Source: Ruminococcus sp. (GTDB lineage: Bacteria; Bacillota; Clostridia; Oscillospirales; Ruminococcaceae). Taken from it: a stretch of 64,000 nt of DNA. The stretch covers positions 141,685-205,684 of the forward strand of contig JAFTQW010000063.1 in assembly GCA_017462565.1 (NCBI GenBank), in the 5' to 3' direction. A model generated the notes under the pieces. It did not search any database, was not told the origin of the DNA, and was given only the letters and a program-made list of their open reading frames with translations. How positions within the stretch are numbered: the first letter of the stretch is position 1; the number at the start of each line of letters is the position of its first letter. The translations under genes were made by a program, and so were the position numbers. Shown here in pieces: positions 2,933 through 22,505 of the stretch.

Positions 2933-3089
2933 GAGCCTGTTCAGTATCTTTTTATGTGCGGATTTTCGAGTCTTTTGGCGGTGACAAGGAAAAAATCCGC
3001 AGGAACACTGACGTATTGCAAGGATTTATGACGCAGTCAACAGCAAAATTTGCCGAAAAGACGTGCAAAAAAAGATAATGAACAGGCTC
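2933..3089 (+). repeat. Family C terminal-inverted-repeat element, copy 1
   Basis: A 157-bp element bounded by 21-base arms (GAGCCTGTTCA... at 2933 and its complement ending at 3089) with one mismatch. The inside has GTGCGGATTTTCGAG near the left arm and AAAATTTGCCGAAAAGA near the right arm. Both are shared with the copy at 22,342-22,505, whose arms are entirely different. It lies in the leader between the operon promoter and the MMPL start. Confidence 0.8.
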
Positions 3090-3161
3090 TTAATCTCCAT
3101 AAAAGGTACGCCGGTTCAGCGTTTTTCCGGCGTGCCAATTTCAAACGAAAGGAACGATATT

Positions 3162-5270
3162 ATGCTTAAATTCGGAGAATGGATCGCAAAGCACAGGATT
3201 CTGATTCTTATTATCAGCGTTCTTCTGATAATTCCGTGTGCAATAGGATTCATTAACACAAGAGTAAATTACGATATTCTTTCATATCTGCCCAAGGATA
3301 TCGCCACTATGGAAGGGCAGGATATTCTTATCGACAAATTCGGTCAGGGCGGATTTTCTTTCGTTATGGTCGAGGGAATGAGCGATAAAGATGTTGCGGA
3401 AACTGCCGATAAAATTGCGGAGGTAGATCATGTTTCAAATGTTGTATGCTATCAGTCGATGGTAGGTCTTGACATTCCGAAAGAGGTTCTTCCGGACAAC
3501 ATCTACGATTTCTTCAATAAAGACGATACGACCATGATGGCTGTTTTCTTCGATGATACGACCTCAGCCGACGGAACTATGGACGCTGTTGAAGAAATGA
3601 GAGATATAACCTCTGAACAATGCTTCATAAGCGGTATGTCGGCGATCACTCTCGATATGAAAAAGCTTTCGCAGAGCGAGACTATTATATACGCAATTAT
3701 AGCGGTTATTCTTACAAGCATCGTCCTTATGGTCGCTATGGATTCTTTCCTGATCCCTGTTTTCTTCATGCTCAGTATCGGAATCGCTATTGTATGGAAT
3801 CTGGGAACAAACTTCGTATTCGGCGAGATATCGTTTTTAACTCAGGCTCTTGCGCTTGTTTTGCAGCTTGGAGTTACAATGGACTACTCAATTTTCCTCT
3901 GGCACAGCTATAAGGAACAGCTCCAGCGCTATCCCGATAACAAGCAGGAGGCTATGGCTCACGCTATTGCAAATACGATAACATCCGTTGTCAGCAGCTC
4001 GTTTACTACGGTTGCCGGATTCCTTGCAATGTGCTTCATGAGCTTCACTCTCGGACTCGATCTCGGAATAGTTATGGCAAAGGGAGTTGTCTGCGGAGTA
4101 ATTGCCTGCGTAACGGTTCTTCCGTCATTGATACTTATTTTTGAAAAGGCTATCTCAAAAACTTCACACAGAGATTTTCTTCCTTCTTTCAAGAGAACGT
4201 CATCGTTTATTATAAAGCACTGCGGACTTTTCCTTACGGCAGCTATAGTTCTTCTTATCCCGGCAGTGTACGGCAATAATAATTACGATGTTTACTATAA
4301 GCTCGACAGTACTCTTCCAGCCGATCTCGACAGCATGATCGCAAATTCAAAGCTTGAAGAAGAGTTTGGCATGAACAGCACTCATATTCTGCTTGCCGAT
4401 TCCTCCCTTGACGCAAAACAGGCAGACCGTATGATCAGCGAAATTGAAAATACTGACGGAGTTCAGATGGCTCTTGGATTTAATTCGCTGGTAGGACCTG
4501 CGATCCCTGAAGAAATTATTCCCGATTCCGTCAAGGAAATTCTGAAAAATGACGAATGGCAGCTTATGCTTATCGGTTCGGAATATAAAGTCGCTTCCGA
4601 CGAGGTAAACGCTCAGATAAATCAGATAAACGATATCATCGGAAAATATGACAGCAAGGCAATGCTTATCGGAGAAGCTCCGGCAACAAAAGATCTTATT
4701 GAAATAACCGACAAGGATTTCAAGGTTGTAAGCATACTTTCAATAGCGGTAATTTTCCTTATCGTTGCAATAACTTTCAGATCGATAACTCTGCCGATAA
4801 TTCTTGTTTCGGTAATCGAGCTGGCTATCATGATAAATCTTGGAATAGCCTTTTTCACCGGAACGGAGCTTCCTTTTATCGCCTCCGTAGTTATCGGAAC
4901 GATACAGCTCGGAGCAACTGTCGATTACGCTATTCTTATGACGACAAGATACAAAACCGAACGAAGCAGCGGAAAGGATAAAAAAGAATCCGTTCATATC
5001 GCTTTAAGCACGTCTATCAAATCTATAATAACATCCGCTCTCGGATTTTTTGCAGCAACTATCGGCGTTGCAGTTTACTCGGATATCGGACTTATTTCGT
5101 CGCTGTGTATGCTTCTTGCAAGAGGAGCTATAATCTCGATGGTAATAGTTATCTGCGTTCTTCCGTCAATGTTTATGGTATTTGACAAGGTCATCTGCAA
5201 AACGAGCGCAGGATTTCTTCCAAAGAAAAATAAAGCTAACTTAAATAAACAAACCGTTGAAATCAATTAA
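3162..5270 (+). CDS. MMPL/RND-superfamily membrane transporter
   Basis: The product (702 aa) has the RND/MMPL layout twice over. A first membrane helix (about residues 12-30) precedes an extracytoplasmic domain to about 165 and a block of helices at about 170-330. A second extracytoplasmic domain and a second helix block (about 525-690) follow. GVTMDYSIFLWHSYKEQ and GATVDYAILMTTRYKTE, one per half, are the family's proton-relay helices. It probably exports lipids or amphiphilic compounds. An upstream in-frame ATG at 3063 lies inside a repeat element and lacks a good ribosome site; ATG at 3162 follows GAAAGGAA and is preferred. The YhgE-like gene follows after 15 bases, and a divergent TetR gene probably controls both. 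Confidence 0.9.
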   Translation: MLKFGEWIAKHRILILIISVLLIIPCAIGFINTRVNYDILSYLPKDIATMEGQDILIDKFGQGGFSFVMVEGMSDKDVAETADKIAEVDHVSNVVCYQSMVGLDIPKEVLPDNIYDFFNKDDTTMMAVFFDDTTSADGTMDAVEEMRDITSEQCFISGMSAITLDMKKLSQSETIIYAIIAVILTSIVLMVAMDSFLIPVFFMLSIGIAIVWNLGTNFVFGEISFLTQALALVLQLGVTMDYSIFLWHSYKEQLQRYPDNKQEAMAHAIANTITSVVSSSFTTVAGFLAMCFMSFTLGLDLGIVMAKGVVCGVIACVTVLPSLILIFEKAISKTSHRDFLPSFKRTSSFIIKHCGLFLTAAIVLLIPAVYGNNNYDVYYKLDSTLPADLDSMIANSKLEEEFGMNSTHILLADSSLDAKQADRMISEIENTDGVQMALGFNSLVGPAIPEEIIPDSVKEILKNDEWQLMLIGSEYKVASDEVNAQINQINDIIGKYDSKAMLIGEAPATKDLIEITDKDFKVVSILSIAVIFLIVAITFRSITLPIILVSVIELAIMINLGIAFFTGTELPFIASVVIGTIQLGATVDYAILMTTRYKTERSSGKDKKESVHIALSTSIKSIITSALGFFAATIGVAVYSDIGLISSLCMLLARGAIISMVIVICVLPSMFMVFDKVICKTSAGFLPKKNKANLNKQTVEIN

Positions 5271-5285
5271 AGGAGAGAGAATTTT

Positions 5286-7928
5286 ATGAATACGAATAAT
5301 TTCAGAAAAATAGCAGCCGGAGTGATCGCCGTTGCAATTTCTGCCGGAGCAACAGGTTCTATAGCATATGCAAAAAATAACGAGAAAACAGACTCCGCTC
5401 CTGAGAATTCAGAAAAGAAGAATACGGAAGCCTCTGAAACGGCAAGAAGTTCTTCCGGAAACTCCGCTTATAAGGACGAGACAGTTTATGTTCTCTGCAA
5501 CAATAATTCTTCTATCAAAAATATTTTGGTAAGCGACTGGCTTAAAAATACTCCGGCGCTTGATTCGATAAGCGATATTTCCTCTTTAAGCGATATTGTG
5601 AACGTTAAGGGCGATGAAAGCTTCACGGTGAACGGTGAGGAGCTTAACTGGTCTGCGGACGGAAGTGATATTTACTATAAGGGCAACTCCGACAAACAGC
5701 TTCCTGTTGATGTTACCATGACATATTTCCTTGACGGAAAAGAGGTTTCACCGGAGAGTATTGTCGGCAAGAGCGGTCATCTCGTTATCCGCTGGACATA
5801 TAAGAACAATCAGAAGTCGGTTCAGCTTGTAAACGGAAAGAAAAAGGAGATAAACGTTCCTTTTCTTGCGGCAAGCGCCGCCGTTTTCGATACTGATAAA
5901 TTTGTGAATGTTGAGGCAGAAAACGGAAAGGTCATCTCAGACGGCGAAAGACTTATCGTTGTCGGAATCGCTTTCCCGGGACTTACCGACAGCCTTGGTC
6001 TTGACGAGATAGAGGGACTTGATGTCAGTCTGCCAGAAACGTTTGAGATATCAGCCGATGTTACTGATTTTGAAATGAGTTCGTCCGTAACTGCTGTTTC
6101 TAATGAAGCTTTTGCAGCTCTCGATCTCGATGATACATCCGATCTGAATGAGCTTAAAGAAAAGCTTAACGAATTGAGCGAAGGAGCAGAACAGCTCTGC
6201 GACGGAACTGCGGCTCTCTATGACGGAATAAAACAGCTTTCCGACAAGTCCGGAGATCTCACGGACGGCATTGATAAGCTTGCCTCCGGTTCTCTTCAAT
6301 TGAAAAACGGAGCGGACGAACTCAATTCAGGCTCGAAGGCTCTTGCCGACGGAGCAAAAACGCTCTCCGATTCTACAGGAACTTTTTCTTCCGGACTTAA
6401 AACGGCAAAGGACGGTTCTTCCGCAATCGTCGGCGGTATCGAACAGGTAAGCTCCGGCTCGTCAGAGCTTAACGCAGGACTTCAGTCTGCAAGCGCCGGA
6501 GCAGAAGCTCTCAGCAGCGGACTCAGCGACGCTAAAACGGGTTCAGACGCTCTCGTTGCCGGATTTACACAGGTAGACGACGGAGCTTCTGCTCTTAAAA
6601 ACGGGGCTTCTCAGCTTACCGGAGGTATGGATTCCCTTACGGCAGGAAGTTCACAGGTGAAAAACGGTTCGTCCGAGCTTGCAAGCGGAGCAAAGGCTCT
6701 CAGCGACGGAGCATCTGCTCTCAGCAACTCCGCAAGTCAGGTTTCGGCAGGAATTTCAGAGGTTAAAACCGGAGCGGATTCCCTTTCAGCAGGTATCTCA
6801 ACAGCAAAAACCGGAGCAGATTCGCTTGCTGCCGGAGCATCCGATCTCTCAGAGGGCGCAGCAGCTCTGTCCGGCGGACTCAGCACGGCAGGAACTTCTC
6901 TTAATGCTACTATTTCAGCCAACGAACAGGCTCTTGCCGCTTTACAGGGATTATATGAGCAGAATCCGTCTGACGAGATAGCCGTAGCTATAGGAACTCT
7001 CCAGCAGACAATAGAAGCTCAGAAGCAGATTGCGGCTTCAATGAGCGAGGGAGGAGCTCTTTACAGCGGTGCGGCAACAATTCAGTCCGGTTCACAACAG
7101 TTAAACGGCGGACTTGAAGAGCTTTCAGCAGGTCTTGCAACGGCTCAGAACGGCTCTGCGGCGCTCAGTCAGGGACTTGAATCTCTCGATAACGGCGGAA
7201 AAGCTCTTGCAGCCGGAGCTTCACAGCTTTCAGGTTCGTCCGCACAGCTTTCACAGGGCGCAGGAACACTCTCTCAGGGTGCGGCATCGCTTGATTCCGG
7301 CATAGGAACTCTTGCAAACGGCAGCACGGGGCTTATCGGCGGACTTGATTCGCTCTCGGCAGGAATTGATAAGCTTTCAGGCGGAGCTTATGAGCTTAAC
7401 AGCGGAATTACTCGTCTTGCTGACGGAGCAGTTGACCTCAATAACGGTCTGTTCAGACTTTCAGACGGTGCGGCAGCTCTTGAAAGCGGTCTTAGAGAGC
7501 TTGACAATGGAGCATTGACGCTCGACGGCGGTCTTGCCCAGCTTTATAACGGCAGCTCGCAGCTGAACAGCGGTGCAAATACGCTCTATCAATCAATTCT
7601 CAAGCTTGGAAGCGGAACTTCTTCACTTTCTTCCGGAGCATCAGAGCTTAATTCGGGAATCCTTACGCTGCAAAGCGGCAGCAAGGCTCTTATCGACGGC
7701 GTATCACAGCTTAAAGACGGTGCAAAGGAGCTTAATGACGGCATGATAAAGTTCAATGATGAGGGAATTGCAGTTCTCACCGGAGCAATAAATGATAATC
7801 TTCCGAACATCATTGACAATTTCAAGGCTGTTCAGAATGCGGCAAAGGAATACAACAGCTATTCCGGAATTTCCGAGGATATGGACGGAAACGTTAAATT
7901 CATTTATATGTTTGACGGCACAAATTAA
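5286..7928 (+). CDS. YhgE/Pip-like protein with long SG-rich heptad repeats
   Basis: The product (880 aa) begins with a signal or anchor segment (about residues 8-28, ending AYAKN). A YhgE/Pip N-terminal-like domain runs to about residue 270. About 500 residues of repeats of the xxxLxxGxxxL type then follow, such as LSSGLSDAKTGSDALVAG. These match the known heptad-repeat class of YhgE/Pip-related proteins and should form a long extracytoplasmic helical rod. The usual C-terminal membrane helices of full YhgE are absent: the protein ends in a soluble sequence (FIYMFDGTN). It is cotranscribed with the MMPL exporter, so a periplasm-like adaptor or wall-spanning accessory role is inferred. GGAGAGAG lies before ATG. 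Confidence 0.85.
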   Translation: MNTNNFRKIAAGVIAVAISAGATGSIAYAKNNEKTDSAPENSEKKNTEASETARSSSGNSAYKDETVYVLCNNNSSIKNILVSDWLKNTPALDSISDISSLSDIVNVKGDESFTVNGEELNWSADGSDIYYKGNSDKQLPVDVTMTYFLDGKEVSPESIVGKSGHLVIRWTYKNNQKSVQLVNGKKKEINVPFLAASAAVFDTDKFVNVEAENGKVISDGERLIVVGIAFPGLTDSLGLDEIEGLDVSLPETFEISADVTDFEMSSSVTAVSNEAFAALDLDDTSDLNELKEKLNELSEGAEQLCDGTAALYDGIKQLSDKSGDLTDGIDKLASGSLQLKNGADELNSGSKALADGAKTLSDSTGTFSSGLKTAKDGSSAIVGGIEQVSSGSSELNAGLQSASAGAEALSSGLSDAKTGSDALVAGFTQVDDGASALKNGASQLTGGMDSLTAGSSQVKNGSSELASGAKALSDGASALSNSASQVSAGISEVKTGADSLSAGISTAKTGADSLAAGASDLSEGAAALSGGLSTAGTSLNATISANEQALAALQGLYEQNPSDEIAVAIGTLQQTIEAQKQIAASMSEGGALYSGAATIQSGSQQLNGGLEELSAGLATAQNGSAALSQGLESLDNGGKALAAGASQLSGSSAQLSQGAGTLSQGAASLDSGIGTLANGSTGLIGGLDSLSAGIDKLSGGAYELNSGITRLADGAVDLNNGLFRLSDGAAALESGLRELDNGALTLDGGLAQLYNGSSQLNSGANTLYQSILKLGSGTSSLSSGASELNSGILTLQSGSKALIDGVSQLKDGAKELNDGMIKFNDEGIAVLTGAINDNLPNIIDNFKAVQNAAKEYNSYSGISEDMDGNVKFIYMFDGTN

Positions 7929-7941
7929 AAATGTTGTTAAC

Positions 7942-8075
7942 TTAAGCGGGGGACGCTGTCGCCCGTCACCTTTGTCACTTCGTGACATTTTCCCACACTG
8001 TGGGGAATCACCCTTTGGAAACCCAGTATTAATTATTTCAAATACCGTTGGTATTTGAAATAATTATGGCTGCGC
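7942..8075 (+). repeat. Family A structured intergenic repeat, copy 2
   Basis: Follows the YhgE-like stop. Modules are GGGGGACGCTGTCGCCCG, GTCACTTCGTGAC, a CCCACA-CTG-TGGGG hairpin, CCCTTTGGAAACCCAGTATT, then a perfect arm pair ATTATTTCAAATACC / GGTATTTGAAATAAT, and GGCTGCGCC. The last part is shared with the copies at 15.5, 19.6 and 23.6 kb. Confidence 0.8.
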
Positions 8076-8160
8076 CAATGATAGAAATTCTTTTGAAAAG
8101 ATACAAGAATAACAAAGTCCTGCAAGAGAGAATGTTCTTTTTTCTTTTTTAATAGACCGA

Positions 8161-8190
8161 AAGATTCAGCAATTTAGCTGAATCTTTTTG
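8161..8190 (+). terminator. Intrinsic terminator
   Basis: A 10-bp stem (AAGATTCAGC / GCTGAATCTT) with a 6-base loop and a run of five Ts. It closes the leftward block before the cellulase gene. Confidence 0.8.
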
Positions 8191-8250
8191 CTTTGAAATG
8201 TGAGTTATTAACAAAATATTTTTTGAGAAGTATAAATTTTACGTTTATTA

Positions 8251-8279
8251 TTGACATTTCGGTTTTTTTATGATAAATT
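8251..8279 (+). promoter_or_regulatory. Probable promoter of the GH5 cellulase gene
   Basis: TTGACA (8251-8256), 17 bases, TAAATT (8274-8279). The -10 is weak, but the surrounding stretch is very AT-rich and the gene starts 35 bases later behind AAAGGAG. Confidence 0.5.
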
Positions 8280-8314
8280 TAAAGTAATAAATTTATAAAG
8301 GAGTTTGATTATCT

Positions 8315-10717
8315 ATGAAGATTCTCAAGAAAGCGCTGTCCGCTGTCTCTGCGGCTGCTGTAACATTTACGGTCGGCGCTTCAGGCATCGGTATCAGCGG
8401 CAGTTTAGGCTCTGCCGACGCTGCCGGAAGCACAACAGCTATCGACCTCGTAAACGATATGGGTCTTGGCTGGAACCTGGGCAACACATTCGACAGCTGG
8501 AATACTGCCAGCTATAAAACTCAGTCAGACGGCTATGTTGACAACGAAACCGGTTTCGGCAATGTTACAACAACCAAGGCTATGATCGACAAGATTCATG
8601 AATACGGCTTCAACAGCGTAAGAATCCCGATCACATGGTATGAAAATACCAATTCGTCTACATTCGATATCAACGACAAATACCTCGCCCGCATCAAAGA
8701 AGTTGTCGATTACTGCTATGCCAACGATATGTATGTAATCATCAATATGCACTGGGATTGGGAAAGCGGCGGCTCTCTTTGGCTCAACAAGGGCGAAGCT
8801 GCGCTCGATCAGTTCAACACAATGTGGAAAGAGATCGCTACATACTTCAAGGACTACGATAATCACCTTGTTTTCGAGGATATGAACGAGGTTACTTTCG
8901 ATTACAGCGTCCTTAACAAGTTCAATCAAAGCTTTGTTGACAATGTCCGTGCAACAGGCGGAAACAACAAGGATCGTCTGCTTCTTCTCGCAGGAGCTAA
9001 CGCCGATCTTACCAAAACCTGTAATTCAAGCTATATCGTTCCCGATGACGATATGCTCGCTGTAGATATTCATTATTATACCCCTCCCACATTCTGCGTT
9101 ATGAAGCAAAATGAGAACTGGGGCGGAACTCTTCCCGCAACTACATGGGGCACAAACGCCGAAAAAACAGATCTTGCAAATAACTTTGCAAAGCTTAAAA
9201 CAAATTTTGTCGATAAAGGCATTCCTGTAATTATCGGCGAATACGGCGTTCTCACTAACGAGGGCAAGGAACAGGAATCTATCAGAGATTTCGTTAAAAC
9301 TGTTGCCGGAACTGCTCTCAGCATGAACGGTGTTGCAGGTTATCTCTGGGACGACAGCGATTCCGGCGGACATAAGTATTTCAGCAGAAAGAACCTTTCT
9401 TTCTTTGATGAAGAAATCGGTAAATCGTTTATAGAGCTTTCCGGCAGCGGTTATAATCCCGGAACTATGGACTGGGTTTCAACCACTGTTGAACAGACAA
9501 AAGATAACTCGGGCAATCCTGTGGCAGGTTCGTATCAGATCACTGTAGGTTCTTCATCAAAGGTTAAAATCGACCTCAGCTCCGATAAAACAAGAGTAGG
9601 CGGAACAGCTACCCTCAGCTACTGGGATAAAAATGCAAATTCAGGCAAAGGCTCGTGGGTTCAGAATGGACTTTACTGCAATATTTCTATCAATGAAGAC
9701 GGTGTTGTTGAAGTAAACCAGACCGATTCAAATTATGAAGAGGTTCTTAACTACGGCTATATCGAAATTCCTCCGGAGGTAGACACAGATACCGTTCAAT
9801 TCCAGATCATGTATGCCGGATATGCAGACGCAGACGGAAACTGGTTCAATCTGGATTCAAGCGAATATCCTGCCGTTTCCAAGGCTTATATCGAAGGAAT
9901 TGTCGATCCGGGTCAGACAACAACAACTACTACCACCACCACAACAACCACTACTACAAAGGGCGGAGACACAACAACTACAACTACTTCGGCAGAAGGC
10001 GTTAACGGAAACGCTTATATCGCCGGTATGCTCGGAGCTGAATCATGCTGGAGCATTGACGATGTTAACGATGAGTCTACAACTGCTGCTATAACTAAGG
10101 ACGGTCAGTATACGGTTGAATGGGTTCTTACAGAGGGCGGTACTGATACTGTTCAGTTCCTCGCCGTTGTAATCAATCCTGCCGGAACCGTTGAAAACTT
10201 CACCACAGATACTCTTCCAAGCCTTGCAGTTACTCTTGACGAGGTCTGGGTAGACGGAGTTCAGCTTACTGATTACACCGCAAGCGAAAACGCCATAAAT
10301 ACACGTTACTACGAAGGCGCAAATAATCCCGGAGTTACGAGAATCTATCTCCGTGATGAATGGGGTTCAAAGATCGAAGACCTTCCGGGCGACACTGTAA
10401 TTACTCAGAGCGTTAAGGTAGTTTTCACTGTTAAAGGCGTTGACGCCGGATATACAGAGGATGAAACTCTCTACGGAGACGCTAACTGCGACAAAAAAAT
10501 AGATATGTCAGACGCTGTTCTTATTATGCAGTCACTTTCTAATCCTGATAAGTACGGTCTTAATGGTTCCGATGCAAGCCATATCACAGAACAAGGTATG
10601 CTTAATGCTGACGTTTATGAAAACGGCTCCAGCGGCGTAACAAACGAAGACGCACTTATGATACAAAAATATAAACTTGAACTTGTTGATTCTCTTGAGC
10701 CAGCCGATGCTGCCTGA
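8315..10717 (+). CDS. Secreted GH5 endoglucanase-type enzyme with C-terminal dockerin
   Basis: The product (800 aa) starts with a signal peptide (about residues 1-37, ending ADAAG). The GH5 domain (about 40-370) opens with MGLGWNLGNTFDSW. The likely acid/base is E192 in FEDMNEV and the nucleophile E309 in IIGEYG. The usual NEP motif is NEV here. A beta-rich module (about 385-530) resembles a carbohydrate-binding module. It is followed by a threonine linker (from about 535), a second beta-rich module, and a dockerin from about 719 with a DANCDKKIDMSD calcium loop and a more divergent second repeat. It should cut cellulose or another beta-glucan and dock to a scaffoldin at the cell surface. It is monocistronic, with its own terminator. 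The binding-module families are not assigned. Confidence 0.93.
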   Translation: MKILKKALSAVSAAAVTFTVGASGIGISGSLGSADAAGSTTAIDLVNDMGLGWNLGNTFDSWNTASYKTQSDGYVDNETGFGNVTTTKAMIDKIHEYGFNSVRIPITWYENTNSSTFDINDKYLARIKEVVDYCYANDMYVIINMHWDWESGGSLWLNKGEAALDQFNTMWKEIATYFKDYDNHLVFEDMNEVTFDYSVLNKFNQSFVDNVRATGGNNKDRLLLLAGANADLTKTCNSSYIVPDDDMLAVDIHYYTPPTFCVMKQNENWGGTLPATTWGTNAEKTDLANNFAKLKTNFVDKGIPVIIGEYGVLTNEGKEQESIRDFVKTVAGTALSMNGVAGYLWDDSDSGGHKYFSRKNLSFFDEEIGKSFIELSGSGYNPGTMDWVSTTVEQTKDNSGNPVAGSYQITVGSSSKVKIDLSSDKTRVGGTATLSYWDKNANSGKGSWVQNGLYCNISINEDGVVEVNQTDSNYEEVLNYGYIEIPPEVDTDTVQFQIMYAGYADADGNWFNLDSSEYPAVSKAYIEGIVDPGQTTTTTTTTTTTTTTKGGDTTTTTTSAEGVNGNAYIAGMLGAESCWSIDDVNDESTTAAITKDGQYTVEWVLTEGGTDTVQFLAVVINPAGTVENFTTDTLPSLAVTLDEVWVDGVQLTDYTASENAINTRYYEGANNPGVTRIYLRDEWGSKIEDLPGDTVITQSVKVVFTVKGVDAGYTEDETLYGDANCDKKIDMSDAVLIMQSLSNPDKYGLNGSDASHITEQGMLNADVYENGSSGVTNEDALMIQKYKLELVDSLEPADAA

Positions 10718-10730
10718 TCAAAAAATATCA

Positions 10731-10760
10731 CTGCCGGACTTTTCAGTCCGGCAGTTTTTT
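10731..10760 (+). terminator. Intrinsic terminator after the cellulase gene
   Basis: CTGCCGGACT / AGTCCGGCAG, a perfect 10-bp stem with a TTTC loop and six Ts, 14 bases after the stop codon. Confidence 0.92.
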
Positions 10761-10809
10761 CATAGTCTGAATTAAGTCATATTCACATAAAATCTGTTTC
10801 CGACATATC

Positions 10810-11014
10810 TTAAGGAAGCACTGATTAAATCCAGTGTGCAGATTGCGCAGTCAGATTTTTCATCAGATTGTATAGAAATTTTGCAGGCAGGCTGTCGCCT
10901 GTCAAAAAAATTCTGTGTACCCCAAGGGAATTTCCTTCGGGCGCAGATGACGAAAAATATGCAAGCAAGGTGCGCTCCGAGCCGTCAGGCGCAATTTAAT
11001 CAGTGATTCCTTAA
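10810..11014 (+). repeat. Family B terminal-inverted-repeat element, copy 1
   Basis: A 205-bp element with 21-base arms (TTAAGGAAGCAC... and its complement ...GTGATTCCTTAA), one mismatch. The inside carries GTCAGATTTTTCATCAGATT and AAAATATGCAAGCA, both nearly repeated in the copy at 17,467-17,646. It ends 28 bases before the feoB start codon. No coding sequence is seen. Confidence 0.8.
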
Positions 11015-11041
11015 TACAGAACAATTTCAGGAGGTCGGAAT

Positions 11042-12204: not shown

Positions 12205-12209
12205 TATAT

Positions 12210-13781: not shown

Positions 13782-13827
13782 TTTGTCCTCCAGATTTTAA
13801 AATTGCGGATACTTCCGCCACCGATAT

Positions 13828-13857: not shown

Positions 13858-13964
13858 TGTTTTTCGCTGTTTTCTGATATTTTCCAGCATTTATCCAAAT
13901 GTTGCCGTAATATAAATGAGTGATTTGCTTAATTTGACAATAAATGTGAAAAAGCAGTGAAAGA

Positions 13965-15455: not shown

Positions 15456-15477
15456 TTTAAACCTCCGTATATTCATT

Positions 15478-15600
15478 TTTCTAAGGGGGACTCTGTCCCC
15501 CTAACCCCCTGCCAAAGGGGAGTACATCCCCTTTGGAAACCCAATATTAATTACTTCAAATCCCAACAAGGGATTTGAAGTAATTAGGCTGCGCCAAAGA
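15478..15600 (+). repeat. Family A structured intergenic repeat, copy 3
   Basis: TTTTTCTAAGGGGGAC-TCT-GTCCCCC, CCAAAGGGG-AGTACAT-CCCCTTTGG, AAACCCAATATT, then arms ATTACTTCAAATCCC / GGGATTTGAAGTAAT, and GGCTGCGCC. Conserved framing matches the other copies; the long arm differs. Confidence 0.8.
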
Positions 15601-15676
15601 GAACAAACCGTTAACAGAAGGTAAAAGTGAAAACAAAGTCTCTTCAAAATGAAGAAAAATGAACACCTTATAAACA

Positions 15677-16003
15677 CAGGGACGGAAAAGCCGTCCCTGA
15701 CAGTCTGTCGAAAAAGTGATTTTTTATTAATAATGGGATTCCAAAGGGACAATGTCCCTTTGGCAGAGTCCAGAGGCAACGCCTCTGGTAGGGTGTGGGG
15801 CAAAGCCCTGCATACAGCCTTCGGGCGCTCCGTAAAGAGTGAATTTCAAAACAGTCCAATGGACTGTTTTGAAAGAGGTGACTCCCCACAGTGTGGGGAG
15901 ATGTCACGAAGTGACAGAAGGGACGGCACGTAGTGAGCCCTGTAAGAGAGGGCGTTCCCTTAGTTTTTCTACAAGCTGACAGGGACGGAAAAGCCGTCCC
16001 TGA
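15677..16003. repeat. Composite family A repeat (copy 4) flanked by duplicated hairpins
   Basis: Two identical hairpins (CAGGGACGGAAAAGCCGTCCC plus two bases) lie at 15,677-15,699 and 15,980-16,002. They enclose about 280 bp made of hairpin modules: CCAAAGGGAC/GTCCCTTTGG, CCAGAGGC/GCCTCTGG, AAAACAGTCCA/TGGACTGTTTT, CTCCCCACA/TGTGGGGAG and TGTCAC/GTGACA. The outer framing matches the copy at 1.9 kb, read in the same direction. Together with copy 3 this fills the 555-base gap between the GH43 start and the glmM end; nothing coding is seen there. Confidence 0.75.
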
Positions 16004-16010
16004 TTTTAAT

Positions 16011-17396
16011 TTATAATGTATGGCCGTTAGCCTTGAGAACTTCCACAACCTCGCCGACATATCTGCGGCAGGTCTCTTCGTCCTCGGCTTCAACCATTAC
16101 ACGAACCAACGGCTCTGTTCCGCTTTCACGCACGAGGATTCTTCCCGATTCCCCAAGCTCGGCGGCAGCTTTTTCAACTGCGGCAATAACATCCTTATCA
16201 GACTGAGCGGCGGATTTATCCTTGACTTTTACATTTTCAAGCACCTGCGGATAAACCTTGAACGGAGCGGCAAGCTCGCTGAGATTTTTTCCTCTTGCCA
16301 TAATAACTTCCATAATTTTAAGACTTGTGAGGATACCGTCGCCCGTTGAAGCGTACTTCGAGAAGATGATATGTCCCGACTGCTCTCCGCCGAGACGGCA
16401 GCCGTTTTCCTTCATGTATTCGTAAACGTATTTGTCGCCGACGGATGTTTTAGCGTAGTTGATACCTATTTCATCGAAAGCCTTATAAAGACCGAAATTG
16501 GACATAATCGTCGTAACAACAGTATTATTGACCAGCTTTTCACGTTCTTTCATATATCGTCCGTAGATATAAAGAATGTGATCGCCCGAAATAACTCCGC
16601 CCTTTTCGTCCACGCAGAGACAGCGGTCGGCATCGCCGTCATAGGCAAAACCTGCGTCAAGCTTGTTTTCCACAACGAATTTCTGCAAACCTTCAATATG
16701 AGTCGAACCGGCATTATTGTTTATATTAGTGCCGTTCGGCTCGGCATTTATGACGTGGGTTTCAGCTCCGAGAGCGTCAAAAACAGCCTTTGCAACGTTC
16801 CACGCAGCTCCGTTAGCGCAGTCGAGACCGATCTTCTTTCCTCTGAACGAATATACCCCAAGCGAAATAAGATAACCGATATAGCGGTTTCTTCCGGAAA
16901 CGTAATCGACCGTGCGTCCGATTTTATCGTCAAGAGCAAACGGAAGCTCGCTCCAGCTCTGACCGAAAATCTCCAGTTCACCGTCAAGATAAGCCTCAAC
17001 GAGATTTATAACCTCGTCCTCCATTTTTTCGCCGTATCTGTTGATGAGCTTAAGACCGTTATCGTGATAGGGATTATGACTTGCCGAGATCATTATTGCG
17101 CAGTCGAAACCGTCTACACGGGAAATATACGCAACCGAGGGAGTTGTTGTAACGTGAAGCAGATAAGCGTCTGCGCCGGAAGCGGTAAGTCCGCCTACGA
17201 GCGAATACTCAAACATATAGCTTGAAAGTCTTGTATCTTTTCCGATAAGTACACGAGGAGCGGTATTATCGCCGTTTCTTCTCTTTATTTCTCCGTAATA
17301 CCAGCCGAGGAAGCGTCCAACCTTAAAGGCATGGTCGGCAGTTAAATTAACGTTGGCAGTTCCTCTGAAGCCGTCTGTTCCAAAATATTTTCCCAC
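16011..17396 (-). CDS. glmM: Phosphoglucosamine mutase
   Basis: The product (461 aa) should convert glucosamine-6-phosphate to glucosamine-1-phosphate on the way to UDP-GlcNAc and cell wall. The phosphoserine loop reads ISASHNPYHDNG (about residues 101-112), the metal-binding loop DGDADRCL, and the C-terminal phosphate site ESGTEPLVRV. It starts GTDGFRG, as the family does. The start is GTG at 17,396, with AAGGAG ten bases upstream; no better ATG exists. The upstream region is extremely AT-rich with a TATAAT-like box. The repeat B element lies behind it. Confidence 0.95.
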   Translation of the reverse strand: MGKYFGTDGFRGTANVNLTADHAFKVGRFLGWYYGEIKRRNGDNTAPRVLIGKDTRLSSYMFEYSLVGGLTASGADAYLLHVTTTPSVAYISRVDGFDCAIMISASHNPYHDNGLKLINRYGEKMEDEVINLVEAYLDGELEIFGQSWSELPFALDDKIGRTVDYVSGRNRYIGYLISLGVYSFRGKKIGLDCANGAAWNVAKAVFDALGAETHVINAEPNGTNINNNAGSTHIEGLQKFVVENKLDAGFAYDGDADRCLCVDEKGGVISGDHILYIYGRYMKEREKLVNNTVVTTIMSNFGLYKAFDEIGINYAKTSVGDKYVYEYMKENGCRLGGEQSGHIIFSKYASTGDGILTSLKIMEVIMARGKNLSELAAPFKVYPQVLENVKVKDKSAAQSDKDVIAAVEKAAAELGESGRILVRESGTEPLVRVMVEAEDEETCRRYVGEVVEVLKANGHTL

Positions 17397-17466
17397 TTGA
17401 ATGCTACTCCTTACATTATATAATATTAAAAATATATTGTATTATCTATATATTTTATACTTCATA

Positions 17467-17646
17467 TTAAGGCAACACCGCGCAATTATTGCCGTGCAGA
17501 TGCGCCGTCAGATTTTTTGTCAGATTGTACAGAAATTACGCAGAAATACTGTCGTATTTCAAGAAATTTCTGTGCAAGATGACGGAAAATATGCAAGCAG
17601 ATGTGCGGCAAAGGCGTTTGCCGTTAATTGCGCGGTGTTGTCTTAA
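17467..17646 (+). repeat. Family B terminal-inverted-repeat element, copy 2
   Basis: A 180-bp element with 22-base arms (TTAAGGCAACACCGCG... and its complement), one mismatch. Shared inside blocks with copy 1 include GTCAGATTTTTTGTCAGATT, AGAAATT, GATGACGGAAAATATGCAAG. An inner GAAATACTG-TCGTATTTC hairpin replaces GGCAGGCTGTCGCC of copy 1. It lies between glmM and the phosphonate genes. Confidence 0.8.
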
Positions 17647-17720
17647 GCAATCTGAACAAATAAATAATCAAACTGCTTAAAATTATTATAACACTTTGTC
17701 AGCAGATAGTCAATATTATT

Positions 17721-18842
17721 TTAAATTTCTTTCAGATAATCCATAAAATTCTGTTTATTTTCAAGAGCGGTAGTTGTTGGTCTGCCGAGATCGGCTCTTG
17801 CTCCGACGGCGCATTTCACCTCGATAAACGAGAGCTTTCCCCTTGATTTTGCTCTTTCAAGAGCCTCATCAAGCTCCTCGAAGCTTGAAGCGCACTCTGC
17901 GCTTTCATAACCGCAGGCTTCGGCAATACCGGTTAAATCTATCTCTGATGCAACGGTCGGCATACCTCCGACAGTTTCGTGAGAACCGTTGTTTATCACG
18001 ATATGGATAAGATTATCAGGGGAATTTGATCCGATAACAGCCATTGCTCCCATATGCATAAGAGCAGCTCCGTCGCCGTCTATGCACCAGATGCGGCTTT
18101 GCGGCTTATTTACAGCGATTCCGAGAGCGATCGAGGACGAATGTCCCATCGAGCCGACCGTAAGGAAATCATACTTGTGGCTCTGGGAATTGGCTTCACG
18201 GATCTCAAACAGCTCACGGCTTGCCTTTCCTGTTGTAGAAACGACTGGGTCTTCTCCTGCGGCAGCGACAATATGCCGGATTATTTCTTCACGGAGCATC
18301 GTATTTTCATTTTTGTATTCAACTTTTCCGTCATAGGATAACGCTCCCTTGCGAATCACGAATGCGACCTGTTTTCCCTTTGCAAGAACGCTGCGGAAAT
18401 CCTCCATAGCAGCGGAAAGCTCCTCTTCGCTTGTATCTTTACTGATGACGAAAGTTTTTATATCCATATCTTCAAGAAGCTTTAACGTTACCTCTCCCTG
18501 ATATATGTGCTGCGGTTCGTCGTGAATACCGGGTTCACCTCTCCAGCCAACAATAAAAACTGCCGGAATCGCATAAACCTTATCGTTAAGAAGCGATGCA
18601 ACCGGATTTATTATATTTCCCTCGCCGGAATTCTGCATATAAACGACCGGAACTTTTCCCGTTGCAAGATGATATCCGGCAGCAAGAGCAGTACAGCATC
18701 CCTCGTTTGCAGCGATTATGTGATGATTTTTGTCAATTCCGTATGTATTCATAAGATAGTCGCAGAGCGGTTTAAGCTGCGAATCCGGAACTCCGGTAAA
18801 AAAATCCGCTCCTATAATTTTAACAAGATTTTCGGCTTTCAT
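17721..18842 (-). CDS. aepY: Phosphonopyruvate decarboxylase
   Basis: The product (373 aa) is a short thiamine-diphosphate enzyme that should decarboxylate phosphonopyruvate to phosphonoacetaldehyde, the step that pulls the PEP mutase reaction forward. The Glu that activates the cofactor is in AANEGCCTALAAG. The diphosphate/Mg site is the GDGAALM ... INNG motif near residues 255-285. The N-terminal FTGVPDSQLK is typical of this family. It is the last gene of the minus-strand phosphonate set and starts 3 bases after the nucleotidyltransferase stop, so translational coupling is likely. Confidence 0.92.
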   Translation of the reverse strand: MKAENLVKIIGADFFTGVPDSQLKPLCDYLMNTYGIDKNHHIIAANEGCCTALAAGYHLATGKVPVVYMQNSGEGNIINPVASLLNDKVYAIPAVFIVGWRGEPGIHDEPQHIYQGEVTLKLLEDMDIKTFVISKDTSEEELSAAMEDFRSVLAKGKQVAFVIRKGALSYDGKVEYKNENTMLREEIIRHIVAAAGEDPVVSTTGKASRELFEIREANSQSHKYDFLTVGSMGHSSSIALGIAVNKPQSRIWCIDGDGAALMHMGAMAVIGSNSPDNLIHIVINNGSHETVGGMPTVASEIDLTGIAEACGYESAECASSFEELDEALERAKSRGKLSFIEVKCAVGARADLGRPTTTALENKQNFMDYLKEI

Positions 18843-18845
18843 AAA

Positions 18846-19535
18846 TTACCTCCCATTTATTTCTTCAAGCTCGGCAACTGTGTCTATTTCGGTTATCTGC
18901 TCATTTTTTATGGGATGAACTTTCAGTCGGAGCGAATCAAGGTTCATATTCACAACGTCGTCCCAGAAGAGCGTTTCATAGCCAGACTTTCCATATGCAT
19001 TTTCAATTGCTCCCGCAAGGAATTCAGCGTCGTTCTTTTTAAGAAAAGCGATTCCGGTCATGTTATACTGAGCCTTTCCGCCCTTGCCGACTCTGGTAAT
19101 ATAGCCGCTTTCATCCGTATCAAAAACCCAGTCGTCGGTTTTTTCCTCTTTATACTTGCCGAAATAGCACGAATTTTCAAGCCCGCAGCGAAACACTTCC
19201 GCATCCGGAATAAAAAGGTCGGCTTCGCAGATAAAGCAGTCGCCAAGACGAAGAACGTCCCTTGCATAGTAAACGGACGAAATATTGTTTATCGTTTCAT
19301 AATCGGGATTTTCAATTATTTCGGTCTGCGGATATTTTTCCGTAAGATAACAAAACTGTTCCCCCAGATAGCCTGTAACGATATAAATTTTATTGATATT
19401 GCGGCTGATAAGTCCTTCAATGACCGTTTCTATCATCGGTCTGCCTTTAACTTTTATAAGAGGCTTCGGAGTTGTTTCCGTAAGCGGGCGCATTCTCGTT
19501 CCCATTCCGGAAGCCATAATTACTGCATTTTCCAT
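18846..19535 (-). CDS. Nucleotidyltransferase, probable AEP cytidylyltransferase (PntC-like)
   Basis: The product (229 aa) has the NTP-transferase Rossmann-like fold. It opens MENAVIMASGMGTRMRPLT, with PKPLIKVKGRPMIE as the sugar-phosphate/choline-type loop. Such LicC/PntC proteins transfer CMP to phosphocholine or 2-aminoethylphosphonate. Between aepY and phnW the most likely substrate is AEP, giving CMP-AEP for transfer to glycans. This is context inference. An in-frame GTG seven codons upstream exists, but AAAGGAGA sits just ahead of ATG at 19,535. The 210-base gap to phnW holds a family A repeat. Confidence 0.82.
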   Translation of the reverse strand: MENAVIMASGMGTRMRPLTETTPKPLIKVKGRPMIETVIEGLISRNINKIYIVTGYLGEQFCYLTEKYPQTEIIENPDYETINNISSVYYARDVLRLGDCFICEADLFIPDAEVFRCGLENSCYFGKYKEEKTDDWVFDTDESGYITRVGKGGKAQYNMTGIAFLKKNDAEFLAGAIENAYGKSGYETLFWDDVVNMNLDSLRLKVHPIKNEQITEIDTVAELEEINGR

Positions 19536-19564
19536 GAATATCTCCTTTGATTTCACTGAACATT

Positions 19565-19690
19565 TTTAAGGGAGACTCTGTCTCCCTTATACCCTCTGCC
19601 AAAGGGGAGTACATCCCCTTTGGAAACCCGGTATTAAGCTTATATTATCTCCATTCGGAGATAATATAAGCTTAGGGCTTCGCCCAATGG
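19565..19690 (+). repeat. Family A structured intergenic repeat, copy 5, inside the phosphonate cluster
   Basis: TTTTTAAGGGAGAC-TCT-GTCTCCCTT, CCAAAGGGG-AGTACAT-CCCCTTTGG, AAACCCGGTATT, then a wholly different arm pair (AAGCTTATATTATCTCC / GGAGATAATATAAGCTT) and GGGCTTCGCCC. It separates phnW from the nucleotidyltransferase gene on the same strand. Confidence 0.8.
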
Positions 19691-19765
19691 ACAATCACTT
19701 CTTGTCAAAGAGTAAAAGAAAAACAAATTCCCCTTTAAAATATACAAAAAGCAAATGTGATATTA

Positions 19766-20896
19766 TCAGTCATTATATTTCACGGGTACTGATATATTAT
19801 TTGCTTTCAGAGCCTCTTCAAAAACCTTGAAGAAACCTGCTATATCCTCTTCGTCGATCGCACCGAGAGCGCAGAGACGGAATGTATTCGTTGTCGAAAT
19901 TTTTCCGGGATAAATAGTGTAGCCACGTTCATAGCAGTAATCATGAACAGCTTCAAAGCTCCAATTCGGATCGTCGGGATAAACTGCCGAAGAAACAAGA
20001 CCTGCCCTCAGCTCCGGCTTGATGACCTGACGGAAGCCGAGTCTGTCAAGACCTGCATTGATCGCATTGAAAACTCTCGTATGTCTTGCCCATTTATTCT
20101 GCTCGCCCTCTTCAAAATATTCTTTAAGAGCCTGCTTTGCCGCATAAACGGTCTGAACCGGCGGAGTGAAGTGCATTTCTCCCGTTTTCTCAAAGAAATC
20201 ATATTGCAGGAACAAATTGCAGTAATACGATCTTTTCGGGTACTCTGCCGACGCCTCGATAATGTTTTTATTGCCGATAATAAACGAAAGTCCTGTCATA
20301 GCCATAAGACCCTTCTGTGCAGAAGCCATGCAGAAATCAATATTATCCTTTTCAATGTCGATAGGACGCATGGCAAGAGTCGAGGTCGTATCAACCGTAA
20401 AAACGACGTTGTACTTATGAGCCAAAGCTCCTATTTCACGGATAGGATTAAGAATTCCTGTACCTGTTTCGTTGTGAGTCGTATGAACAAGAGCAATATC
20501 CGGATTATTTTTCAGAGTCTGCTCGACTTCATTCAAATCGGGAATTTCATCAACCGGATATTTCAGCTCGATAAACGGCAGACCGTAATATTGACAGATC
20601 TCAACCGCTCTTGTGCTGTAAGCTCCGTTATTGACAACGAGTATCTTTTTTTCCGCAGGAAGAAGCGAATTAAGGCATACGTCAATGTTTATCGTTCCCG
20701 AACCGCAGAAAAGTACGGACGTATATTTTTCGGGATCGCCGTGAACTATTTTAACGAGATCGGTTCTTAGCTCTCTCATCATCTCGGCAAATTCCTTTTC
20801 TCTCGGACAAATATCCGGTACGACCTGAGCCATTTTAACGGTATCGGTAGTAGTTGAAGGTCCGGGATTGAGAAGAATATTTCTTTTGATTTCCAT
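19766..20896 (-). CDS. phnW: 2-aminoethylphosphonate-pyruvate transaminase
   Basis: The product (376 aa) is a PLP-dependent fold-type I aminotransferase that should aminate phosphonoacetaldehyde to 2-aminoethylphosphonate here, although the family also works in the breakdown direction. It opens LLNPGPSTTTDTVK, as PhnW/AEPT proteins do. VDTTSTLAMRPID leads to SAQKGLMAM, where the lysine holds PLP. Neighbours (PEP mutase, phosphonopyruvate decarboxylase) indicate biosynthesis. The start is supported by AAGGAG ahead of ATG. It begins 14 bases after the PEP mutase stop. Confidence 0.93.
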   Translation of the reverse strand: MEIKRNILLNPGPSTTTDTVKMAQVVPDICPREKEFAEMMRELRTDLVKIVHGDPEKYTSVLFCGSGTINIDVCLNSLLPAEKKILVVNNGAYSTRAVEICQYYGLPFIELKYPVDEIPDLNEVEQTLKNNPDIALVHTTHNETGTGILNPIREIGALAHKYNVVFTVDTTSTLAMRPIDIEKDNIDFCMASAQKGLMAMTGLSFIIGNKNIIEASAEYPKRSYYCNLFLQYDFFEKTGEMHFTPPVQTVYAAKQALKEYFEEGEQNKWARHTRVFNAINAGLDRLGFRQVIKPELRAGLVSSAVYPDDPNWSFEAVHDYCYERGYTIYPGKISTTNTFRLCALGAIDEEDIAGFFKVFEEALKANNISVPVKYND

Positions 20897-20910
20897 AAAT
20901 TTAACACTCC

Positions 20911-22206
20911 TTAAAGTTCGTCAATAAGCGTTATGATATTTTTTATAGGCATAAGACGTTCGTCAACTTCCTTTGCACGATGATATCTGAGAATATCCTT
21001 AGCGGTCTGCTCCATAGCAGGAAAAGCGCTTCTGGTAAGCTGGTTTGCGTAGATAACTATATTTACCCCGTGTGCCGCAAGCTCGCTCTCGGTTATCTGA
21101 TTGAACGACGTCGGAACGACTACTATTGGAGTACGGCTGTTTTTCTCTCTGAATTTATCGCAGAATTCAAGTATTTCCGCCGGATCTTTTTTTCGGCTGT
21201 GGATCATAATGCCGTCCGCACCGGCTTCAACGTAAGCAAAGGCACGTTCAAGAGCGTCGTCCATGCCCTGTTCGAGGATAAGACTTTCGATTCTTGCAAT
21301 TATCATAAAGTCGTCTGTAAGCTGGATTTTCTTGCCCGACTTTATTTTCTCGCAGAAATGCTCAATGGAATCCTGAGTCTGCTCGACTTCCGTTCCAAAA
21401 AGCGAATTCTTTTTAAGACCTGTTTTATCCTCGATAATGATAGCTGAAACGCCCATTCTTTCAAGAGTTCTGACCGTATAGACGAAATGCTCGATAAGAC
21501 CTCCCGTATCGCCGTCAAAAATGATAGGCTTTGTTGTAACCTCCATAACGTCGTCAATTGTGCGGAAGCGTGAGGTCATGTCAACAAGCTCGATATCCGG
21601 CTTGCCCTTGGCAGTTGAATCGCAGAGCGAGCTTATCCACATAGCGTCGAACTGATCGAGTTCGCCGTCGGTTTCAACGATAGTTTTCTCCGCAATAAGT
21701 CCGGTAAGACCGCTGTGGACTTCGAGGGTTTTCACGATCGGACATATCTCGATAAGTTGTCTGAGCCGTTTTCTGCGGTATTCCGGCATCGCAAGCTTTT
21801 CCCGAATGCGGCGGTCGATTCTTTTCACGTTTTCGTTGTATGTATACGGAACGTCGATAATGCTTCCGCCGTAGGCTTCAAGGAGCTTCTCGGCGTTGTC
21901 CCTTATGGCTTTCTCCGGACCGTTTTTCCAGTTATCGCCGTGAATGACGTAATCGGGATGAATTTCAGCGACCACCTTATCGTACATTATATCGTCCTGA
22001 GTTATAATTTTATCGGCAATGCCCAGCTCTTCAACAATGCGGACTCTTTCGGCAAAATCGACAGTCGGGAAGCGATTATAGCGAATCATAGCGGAATCGC
22101 TTAAAATTCCGACAATAAGCTTTCCGTATTTTTTAGCTTCTGTAAGTATATTTATGTGACCTTCATGGATAACGTCCGTGCAGAAGCAGGTGTAAACGAT
22201 TTTCAT
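20911..22206 (-). CDS. aepX: Phosphoenolpyruvate mutase with N-terminal cytidylyltransferase-like domain
   Basis: The product (431 aa) has two parts. Residues 1-130 are a nucleotidyltransferase-like domain with the HxGH motif (HEGH) and YVIHGDNW. The rest is a PEP mutase/isocitrate lyase barrel with the family motif EDK-x5-NS (EDKTGLKKNS) and the metal site FDGDTGG. The mutase part rearranges PEP to phosphonopyruvate, forming the C-P bond. The front domain has no firm role; it may handle a CTP-dependent step. GGAGG lies inside a four-codon in-frame extension, so ATG at 22,206 is chosen. It is first in the minus-strand set and has a good promoter. Confidence 0.92.
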   Translation of the reverse strand: MKIVYTCFCTDVIHEGHINILTEAKKYGKLIVGILSDSAMIRYNRFPTVDFAERVRIVEELGIADKIITQDDIMYDKVVAEIHPDYVIHGDNWKNGPEKAIRDNAEKLLEAYGGSIIDVPYTYNENVKRIDRRIREKLAMPEYRRKRLRQLIEICPIVKTLEVHSGLTGLIAEKTIVETDGELDQFDAMWISSLCDSTAKGKPDIELVDMTSRFRTIDDVMEVTTKPIIFDGDTGGLIEHFVYTVRTLERMGVSAIIIEDKTGLKKNSLFGTEVEQTQDSIEHFCEKIKSGKKIQLTDDFMIIARIESLILEQGMDDALERAFAYVEAGADGIMIHSRKKDPAEILEFCDKFREKNSRTPIVVVPTSFNQITESELAAHGVNIVIYANQLTRSAFPAMEQTAKDILRYHRAKEVDERLMPIKNIITLIDEL

Positions 22207-22242
22207 TTTATCCTCCATTTAATTGTAATAGGTATTTTATTT

Positions 22243-22271
22243 ATTATAGCACGCTTTCGGTAATTATTCAA
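22243..22271 (-). promoter_or_regulatory. Promoter of the phosphonate gene cluster
   Basis: On the minus strand TTGAAT (22266-22271), 17 bases, TATAAT (22243-22248), 37 bases ahead of the aepX start. Confidence 0.75.
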
Positions 22272-22299
22272 TATAAATTTCGGTTTTGTAATTTTTTAG

Positions 22300-22328
22300 T
22301 TGATTTTTTATTGACTATGTGCTATAAT
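22300..22328 (+). promoter_or_regulatory. Promoter of the YeiH-family gene
   Basis: TTGATT (22300-22305), 17 bases, TATAAT (22323-22328). The start codon is 200 bases downstream; the leader is filled by the family C element. Confidence 0.7.
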
Positions 22329-22341
22329 TTTATCCGGATTT

Positions 22342-22505
22342 AGAACTTGTTCTCATAGGATTTGTGCGTAGATTTTCGAGCATAATTTTACTGAGTGCAA
22401 GACAAAAAAGTGAAAGCATACTATTTGTATGGTAAGCTTTTTTAACGCAGCAATCGGTAAAATTTGCCGAAAAGATGCGTGCAATATCCTATGAGAACAA
22501 GTTCT
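22342..22505 (+). repeat. Family C terminal-inverted-repeat element, copy 2
   Basis: A 164-bp element with perfect 20-base arms (AGAACTTGTTCTC... at 22,342-22,361 and its complement at 22,486-22,505). It shares GATTTTCGAG near the left arm and AAAATTTGCCGAAAAGATG near the right arm with copy 1 at 2.9 kb. As there, it lies between a promoter and the gene it drives, in the same orientation. Confidence 0.82.

Follow-up and report, generated by a model that had tools for sequence, protein, structure and literature searches.

A miniature inverted-repeat transposable element (MITE) is normally tied to one insertion sequence (IS). The REP/REPIN-RAYT systems comprise non-autonomous palindromes which are mobilised in trans and exhibit a conserved folded strand, with REPINs using a Y1 transposase and leaving no target duplications. 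The repeat described here, termed family C, is represented by two copies in the window, a stretch of 64,000 nucleotides of contig JAFTQW010000063.1, and differs from the REPIN/RAYT systems by its target duplications and its DDE-type ends. In excerpts of PMC10969869, bacterial MITEs are described as elements of 50-500 bases with IS-like terminal inverted repeats and short target duplications, which are mostly intergenic and form a strong hairpin in their folded transcripts, ISs being thought to be their main source. Family C is comparable in size, ends, duplications, location and hairpin formation. However, it combines one conserved core with many matched ends, so that the core and not the ends is conserved, and the usual derivation from, and tie to, one IS was not observed: the core is absent from the ISs searched and common to many arm types.

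Several other systems share individual features with family C. The pneumococcal BOX, RUP and SPRITE elements are, according to excerpts of PMC3049150, multi-copy intergenic hairpins with predicted RNA structures and few clear relations to gene function, some of which are thought to be mobilised in trans. In these excerpts they belong to one species, whereas the core of family C is spread over many families within a class, and in family C a preference for G.U pairs separates the core from the arms. IS5-family insertion sequences (NF033580) exhibit matching terminal inverted repeats and TNA-type target duplications and are the likely transposase source; unlike these ISs, which here measure approximately 740-885 bases and carry a transposase, family C is geneless and its core was not found in the ISs searched. 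The Clostridiales-1-type RNA motifs, covarying structured sequences of gut Clostridia presented without known function in excerpts of PMC2864571, are similar in kind, but no Rfam family reaches its cut-off on family C. Neither a bacterial MITE core with exchangeable ends nor this Ruminococcus family was found to be described in the open-access papers searched, most subscription papers lying outside the scope of the search.

The analyses reported below lead us to regard family C, with a probability of roughly 0.8, as a MITE-type non-autonomous transposon composed of two modules and not as a leader RNA. Its approximately 160 bases consist of terminal arms of about 16-21 bases, which would act as recognition ends for IS5-family transposases supplied in trans, and a core of about 120 bases, which folds into one long interrupted hairpin and recurs across the class with many unrelated matched arm pairs. 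In the home genus, insertion occurs mostly at TNA targets and generates a 3-base duplication. The two window copies are organized as follows (window positions):

2933-3089, plus strand: copy 1, whole element, 157 bases
2930-2932: copy 1, left target duplication, TTG (the empty site in the sister genome G031 reads CTA)
2933-2953, plus strand: copy 1, left arm or terminal inverted repeat, GAGCCTGTTCAGTATCTTTTT
2954-3068, plus strand: copy 1, core, a long imperfect hairpin with an apical hairpin, of the core family common to copy 2
3069-3089, plus strand: copy 1, right arm or terminal inverted repeat, one mismatch to the left arm
3090-3092: copy 1, right target duplication, TTA
22343-22504, plus strand: copy 2, whole element, 162 bases
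22340-22342: copy 2, left target copy, TTA (the right flank reads TTT, one base having been lost)
22343-22361, plus strand: copy 2, left arm or terminal inverted repeat, GAACTTGTTCTCATAGGAT
22362-22485, plus strand: copy 2, core
22486-22504, plus strand: copy 2, right arm or terminal inverted repeat, no mismatch to the left arm

An earlier note on this DNA had delimited copy 1 identically, while its extent for copy 2 (22,342-22,505) included an outermost A/T on either side which belongs to the flank. The interior blocks which it had reported as common to both copies are present, and so are its arm pairs with one mismatch in copy 1 and none in copy 2. Its description of the arms as unrelated between the copies is accurate for their inner half, which differs, but not for the outer 10 bases, 8 of which agree (GAGCCTGTTC and GAACTTGTTC). 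Folded in full as plus-strand RNA, the copies reach z-scores of -7.3 (copy 1) and -14.1 (copy 2) relative to shuffled sequences; for copy 2, the plus strand folds at -80.4 kcal/mol and the other strand more weakly, at -61.8 kcal/mol. With 157 and 162 bases, the copies contain no gene and are too small to encode a transposase.

Family C was found to be a dispersed repeat. In the home genome, 56 distinct places were counted by hand, a few being truncated where a contig stops, after merging DNA searches with copy 1 (46 matches) and copy 2 (49 matches), which overlap and include reverse-strand matches. A survey of the genus matched copy 2 in 16 of 60 genomes. Identical 3-base flanks were present in 42 of 65 aligned copies (shuffles: mean 21, maximum 32), these being the copies retained from 84 after partial or decayed ones had been removed by hand. 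For a larger set (290 places, 191 of them full length), 99 reverse-strand repeats were dropped; 11 copies lying at the edge of a locus and 10 from duplicate loci were then removed, so that 170 remained. Among these 170 distinct full copies, in which the flanks played no part in placing the element ends, identical 3-base flanks occur in 110 (5000 shuffles: mean 44, maximum 60), and 107 of the 110 matching duplications are of the TNA type (TTA, TAA, TCA or TGA). Since reverse-complementary flanks were found in only 6 of the 170, the identical flanks do not merely extend the palindrome but represent a direct duplication. At least 10 of the 12 terminal bases are paired in 147 of the 170 copies, a count to be read in view of the fact that the end-caller itself seeks pairing. 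In one genome (G126), all 12 copies read share one core and carry matching duplications (TTA, TAA, TCA and TGA).

Empty sites provide the complementary observation. In the sister genome G031, the sequences bordering each window copy (91-95% identical) directly adjoin one another; the copy 1 site reads GATTC-CTA-ATCTCC and that of copy 2 reads GGATTTA-TTTATATT. Both window copies were recently inserted into gene leaders that already existed. Of the two interpretations put forward in the earlier note, that of an unusual mobile palindrome is borne out by target duplications and empty sites. A search of viral contigs yielded no exact pattern match.

The arms were compared with the ends of ISs. One IS was identified in the home genome (L081:1472-2355 on G000:C23), with a length of 884 bases, ends GAGCCTGTTCAGTATCTTTT, TAA/TAA flanks and a protein assigned to the IS5 family (NF033580, 117 bits against a cut-off of 110). 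The left arm of copy 1 is identical over 21 bases to the left end of this IS (L081:1472). For copy 2, the first 16 bases of the left arm equal both ends (GAACTTGTTCTCATAG) of an IS5-family element in the congener G087 (L100:1464-2205); an IS with these ends was not found in the home draft genome, where the IS with the ends of copy 1 is present. Further IS5-family elements of congeners have ends GAACCTGTCCACATAG with TTA/TTA flanks (L092; its piece scores 89 bits, below the cut-off), GAACCTGTCTTCACAAG with TAA/TCA flanks (L091; 99 bits, likewise below) and GAACTTGTACCAATAG with TAA/TCA flanks (L108), and in most of these congener elements the protein matches are split over two stretches or frames. 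Altogether, 7 of 10 hand-picked IS ends, or 5 of 8 distinct ones as three share one end, lie within one mismatch of an element arm, compared with a mean of 0.06 and a maximum of 2 when bases 9-16 were shuffled; at most of the other transposase loci, a pair of ends could not be clearly recognised. By their sequence, the arms are thus best described as putative recognition ends of IS5-family transposases, and mobilisation would take place in trans by such an enzyme. The arms of the window copies differ and nevertheless pair within each copy because they appear to be the ends of two different IS lineages. When nine IS loci were searched with the core model, no convincing match was obtained, the single partial one (E 0.016) lying outside the IS.

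Some loci of this group require separate mention. A composite-transposon organization was considered for L280 and L288 and rejected, as the DNA shows ISs adjoining core copies. At L288:1369-2616 (G126), an IS of approximately 1.25 kb with ends CACGGTATTTCAACGAG lies directly against the end of a core copy, whose duplication it has apparently removed. A loose pattern scan of the home genome for arm-like sites returned ends which could not be paired, but pointed to two 85-base derivatives (L402, G000:C3:153584-153668, and L403, G000:C31:5450-5534) which retain both arms and have lost the apical part of the core. The flanks of L403 are matching TGA; the apical hairpin may be dispensable for movement, or it may have been lost after the insertion of L403.

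The core was analysed separately from the arms, using an alignment of 42 of the 43 non-redundant copies (L063 was left out). RNAalifold predicted 55 pairs, 42 of which show changes on both sides. Paired cells amounted to 92.3%, compared with 78.0% for shuffled alignments and 37-46% for slid structures, and the covariation score was 0.490 (shuffled, 0.231; slid, at most 0.117). The consensus energy was -49.4 for the plus strand and -23.1 for the other strand. A G.U pair on one strand corresponds to an A.C mismatch on the other, and a palindrome which acts only in double-stranded form should hold both equally. In the 42 copies, the ratio of G.U to A.C was found to be 188:36 in the core and 37:34 in the arms; taken per sequence, the core shows an excess of G.U in 38 copies, an excess of A.C in one and equal numbers in three. 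Among 165 distinct sequences, the ratios were 608:107 for the core and 132:99 for the arms (odds ratio 4.3). Restriction to pairs predicted alike on both strands, which removes the bias that arises because the structure is otherwise chosen on the plus strand, yielded 44:19 in the core and 24:28 in the arms (Fisher p 0.013). In 25 loci from other genera, 36 of 42 pairs changed on both sides with a G.U:A.C ratio of 97:13, and in 19 matches at the class level the values were 35 of 42 and 66:6, both alignments having been fitted to the model and leaning towards its structure. The unpaired core bases A58, A59, A107 and A111 are conserved to at least 96%.

The age of a change proved informative. In nine clusters with 115 members, the G.U:A.C ratio of the core was 33:26 for changes confined to single members, 20:9 for changes shared by two or more and 22:0, over seven columns, in the cluster consensuses. 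This growth of the preference with age argues for selection and not for mutation as its cause. It seems that single copies decay neutrally after insertion and that the lineages which continue to spread are selected for folding of one strand. This strand would most likely be RNA rather than single-stranded DNA. Most genes of Clostridia are co-oriented with replication; as the orientation of the element relative to genes is random (see below), insertion tied to one replication strand is disfavored. The same random orientation argues against a use of the core fold in host mRNAs. The different behavior of the two modules, an RNA-like (or single-strand) signal in the core and a DNA-palindrome signal in the arms, offers a simple test for selected structure in other repeats.

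The covariation of the core could also have been produced by DNA template switching alone, that is, by quasipalindrome correction without selection on a folded strand. In E. coli, stems can be repaired or newly formed when the template is switched between inverted repeats (excerpts of PMC8794818 and PMC7202029), and in the former source it is able to fix stems and to make double changes. The covariation of the arms without a G.U preference is what this process predicts. For the core, however, the same prediction of no preference is contradicted by all four of the above ratios (188:36, 608:107, 97:13 and 66:6), and the rise of the preference with age as well as the strong conservation of unpaired core bases are further evidence against it. 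We therefore consider template switching an unlikely sole origin of the core structure.

The distribution of the core was assessed with R1, a model of the core alone, whose E-values are rough owing to a short calibration. As 12 candidates per genome were scored in the family and nine in the class, the resulting genome and genus counts are lower bounds: the core is present in at least 87 of 297 sampled genomes and at least 47 of 126 genera of the family (E up to 1e-5), and in at least 53 of 391 genomes and at least 37 of 223 genera of the class (E up to 1e-6). Among named records with the exact pattern, of which 80 of 115 stretches were listed (at least 115 in total), most are Ruminococcus, including R. 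flavefaciens FD-1, and Oscillospiraceae or unclassified Clostridia assemblies. The list also has a few metagenome-assembled genomes labelled Bacteroides or Alistipes, which we take for misnamed bins. These named relatives suggest Clostridia as the host class.

The best-scoring distant loci carry a variety of arms. In other genera of the family, the arms GAACCTGTCTTCACAAG, GAGCCTGTTTAGGATCTC, GGGTGTGCTGACACTATC, GGGACCTCTGACTTAAATC and GGGGTTCTCTAAAAACC were found. Other families exhibit GTAAACRCTGATTAAAT with TCAA/TAAA flank repeats, GAGCTTTTTTAGTGTCT and GGGCACTTTTAAAAGCC, and the genome G746 exhibits GGGCGTTTCTGAAAAC with TA flanks, the flanks being read by eye in both cases. For genomes beyond the home family, a pairing test was carried out on 51 loci (21 genomes), after four contig-end loci, one duplicate and two home-family loci had been left out. 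Arms pair at 13 or more of 16 bases in 32 of the 51 loci and in 11 of the 21 genomes, compared with 127 of 2386 pairings made across genomes, a control in which the arm type is sometimes the same on both sides. Two loci with unusual ends (L347 and L348, in G445 and G478) consist of two core matches arranged head to head in opposite directions, possibly a different architecture. In L389-L392 and L357-L360 (families f9, f34, f55 and f22), the cores are shorter and lack well-matched outer arms, and neighboring sequence is conserved around AAAACTGC and TTATCCCTA; maybe these loci represent a related repeat with other ends.

Exchange of arms around a nearly unchanged core was examined in 142 copies with well-paired arms; a pair of copies qualified if core identity reached 93% or more and each arm differed at no fewer than 4 of 16 bases. 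Fifteen pairs did so. Some of them only or mainly reflect an end-caller offset of two bases (e.g., L227/L133 and both L125/L180 pairs), leaving six different arm combinations on cores 93-99% identical. For example, L217 (GAACTTGTTCCAATAGG) and L203 (GAGCTTGTGTTCATAGG) have cores 99% identical and L152 (GAACCTGTCCGCATAG) and L174 (GAGCCTGTTCAGTATC) cores 93% identical, each of the four copies being flanked by its own matching duplication. Different arms also coexist within single genomes: in G591, well-matched arms flank five of the six copies that were read, and the five pairs differ, three being alike (around TGTCTT) and two unrelated, and in G451 all three copies carry different matched arms. 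Judged by these sequence comparisons, the core is probably a passenger that changes its transposase. The earlier note had argued that selection for a closing stem, or a copying process which rewrites both ends, is needed to account for such ends; the cores 93-99% identical and the five arm pairs of one genome uphold a process that keeps the ends matched, whereas the arms, being equal to the recognition ends of transposases, need no function as a stem. The usual view of a MITE is that of a relic of one IS, but here a passenger core would last and its transposase-specific ends would be exchangeable, which raises the question of how both ends of an element are rewritten together while the middle stays.

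The joint change of both arms would most likely be explained by fold-back copying. In this model, a new IS end would come to adjoin the strong core hairpin, and a template switch across the hairpin base would copy this end to the other side, generating a matched pair in one step. If correct, a strong hairpin would suffice for a new mobile element to arise from an IS end beside it, and fold-back copying would be a general route to new transposons. Family C could then be a class-wide, transposase-agnostic module, whose structured core, under selection for the folding of one strand, repeatedly takes the matched ends of unrelated transposons by fold-back copying and outlives each transposase. We advance this broader proposal tentatively, at somewhat less than even odds.

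Different matched arms within one genome, as in G591 and G451, would follow directly if the core were itself a mobile unit which splits short MITEs or hairpins already in place by inserting at their centre, and core loci without matched arms do occur. Yet the duplications are located at the outer ends of the arms, and of three short arm-bearing elements read in the home genome, two proved to be core copies with internal deletions instead of core-free precursors, while the third is 51 bases long. Such an invasion by the core appears rather improbable. A lower probability still is assigned to an ordinary MITE lineage whose ends drift with a single co-evolving lineage of IS5 transposase. The arms of the home genus, nearly all of them GARCYTGT variants, and the predominance of TNA targets agree with this scenario, which is contradicted by the different matched arms on cores 93-99% identical, by the many class arms unrelated in sequence (GTAAACRCTGATTAAAT, GGGTTATTGGCACTAA and GGGTAACACCGCACAA) and by the differing flank repeats mentioned above, read by eye as TCAA/TAAA in one family and TA in another.

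Several findings weigh against the two-module transposon and the proposed exchange of its ends. Identical flanks are missing in 60 of the 170 full copies, and no IS was found for most arm types. The only IS found to match copy 2 is the 742-base element of another species (G087), with mismatched flanks (TTA/TAA) and a protein whose score of 51 bits does not reach the cut-off of 110. Well-matched arms are lacking in 19 of the 51 loci and 10 of the 21 genomes from outside the home family, so that matched ends are not universal for the core. As for the core, the apical part alone has a G.U:A.C ratio of 31:18; the pair list was derived from a plus-strand RNA fold, and pairs common to both strands show a weaker bias; the consensus G.U columns are few (seven), with five in one helix; and the copies are related, so that cell counts are not independent. 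In addition, the G.U bias fits RNA and single-stranded DNA alike, and as there is no bias in gene orientation, a role of RNA in cis is hard to see. Finally, fold-back copying itself is a deduced step.

In their genomic context, the window copies are accompanied by the following features:

2862-2890, plus strand: promoter-like site upstream of copy 1, TTGACT-17-TATACT, from a consensus scan only
3162-5270, plus strand: gene of an MMPL-family membrane protein downstream of copy 1, PF03176
22300-22328, plus strand: promoter-like site upstream of copy 2, TTGATT-17-TATAAT, from a consensus scan only
22531-23616, plus strand: membrane-protein gene downstream of copy 2, PF03601 (Cons_hypoth698)

Each copy thus has a promoter-like site before it and the start codon of a membrane-protein gene after it, and points in the direction of that gene, as had been pointed out before; this arrangement holds for these two copies only. 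The promoter-like site of copy 1 is situated in flanking sequence which G031 holds without the element, its second hexamer being read there, and for copy 2 both hexamers are retained in G031. As the G031 flanks are element-free, leaders with promoter-like sites and genes exist without family C. Gene orientation was determined for 141 copies, namely the 170 full copies minus 19 near a locus end, two without a called gene and eight inside an open reading frame (ORF), using a crude, greedy ORF caller with a minimum of 90 amino acids. In tandem settings, 40 copies point with the genes and 44 against them; 33 copies are located between divergent and 24 between convergent genes. Relative to the downstream gene, 73 copies are oriented with it and 68 against it. 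Random orientation relative to genes had been named in advance by the earlier note as an outcome that would tell against a leader RNA element, and it is what these copies show. At the gathering threshold, Rfam 15 had no match in the window. With E up to 1, eight loci gave only three Rfam matches (E 0.42-0.93), none near the cut-off; one of them overlaps an element and belongs to a plant microRNA precursor model, scoring 20 bits where 160 are required. The position of the window copies and their folding, covarying core would suit a leader RNA that acts in cis on the membrane-protein genes downstream (as a riboswitch, attenuator or processing element) and has a closing stem free to vary, but random orientation and empty sites exclude it as a general role and, together with the target duplications and the absence of an Rfam family at cut-off, make it highly improbable.

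Of 132 neighboring gene ends, 27 were located no more than 4 bases from the edge of an element, compared with 1 of 150 gene starts. Elements often abut stop codons (e.g., L005, L008 and L019) because TNA targets include stop codons (TAA, TGA), which are restored by the duplication. Older insertions are also represented: L046 (G000:C32:93.9 kb) and L080 (G031:C11:346 kb) have identical flanks in the two genomes and constitute a shared older insertion, which G031 retains at full length and which has undergone an internal deletion in G000. In two decayed cores, L043 (near 2000) and L050 (near 1900-1960) on G000:C6 and G000:C32, another palindrome (around GTGTCCTGTGGACACC) was apparently inserted. 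In the window, a TetR-type gene (PF00440) lies divergent to the MMPL gene, and at positions 2770-2925, in the space separating the two, motifs resembling TGACTAACGGTCA recur, which look like operators of the TetR-type regulator.

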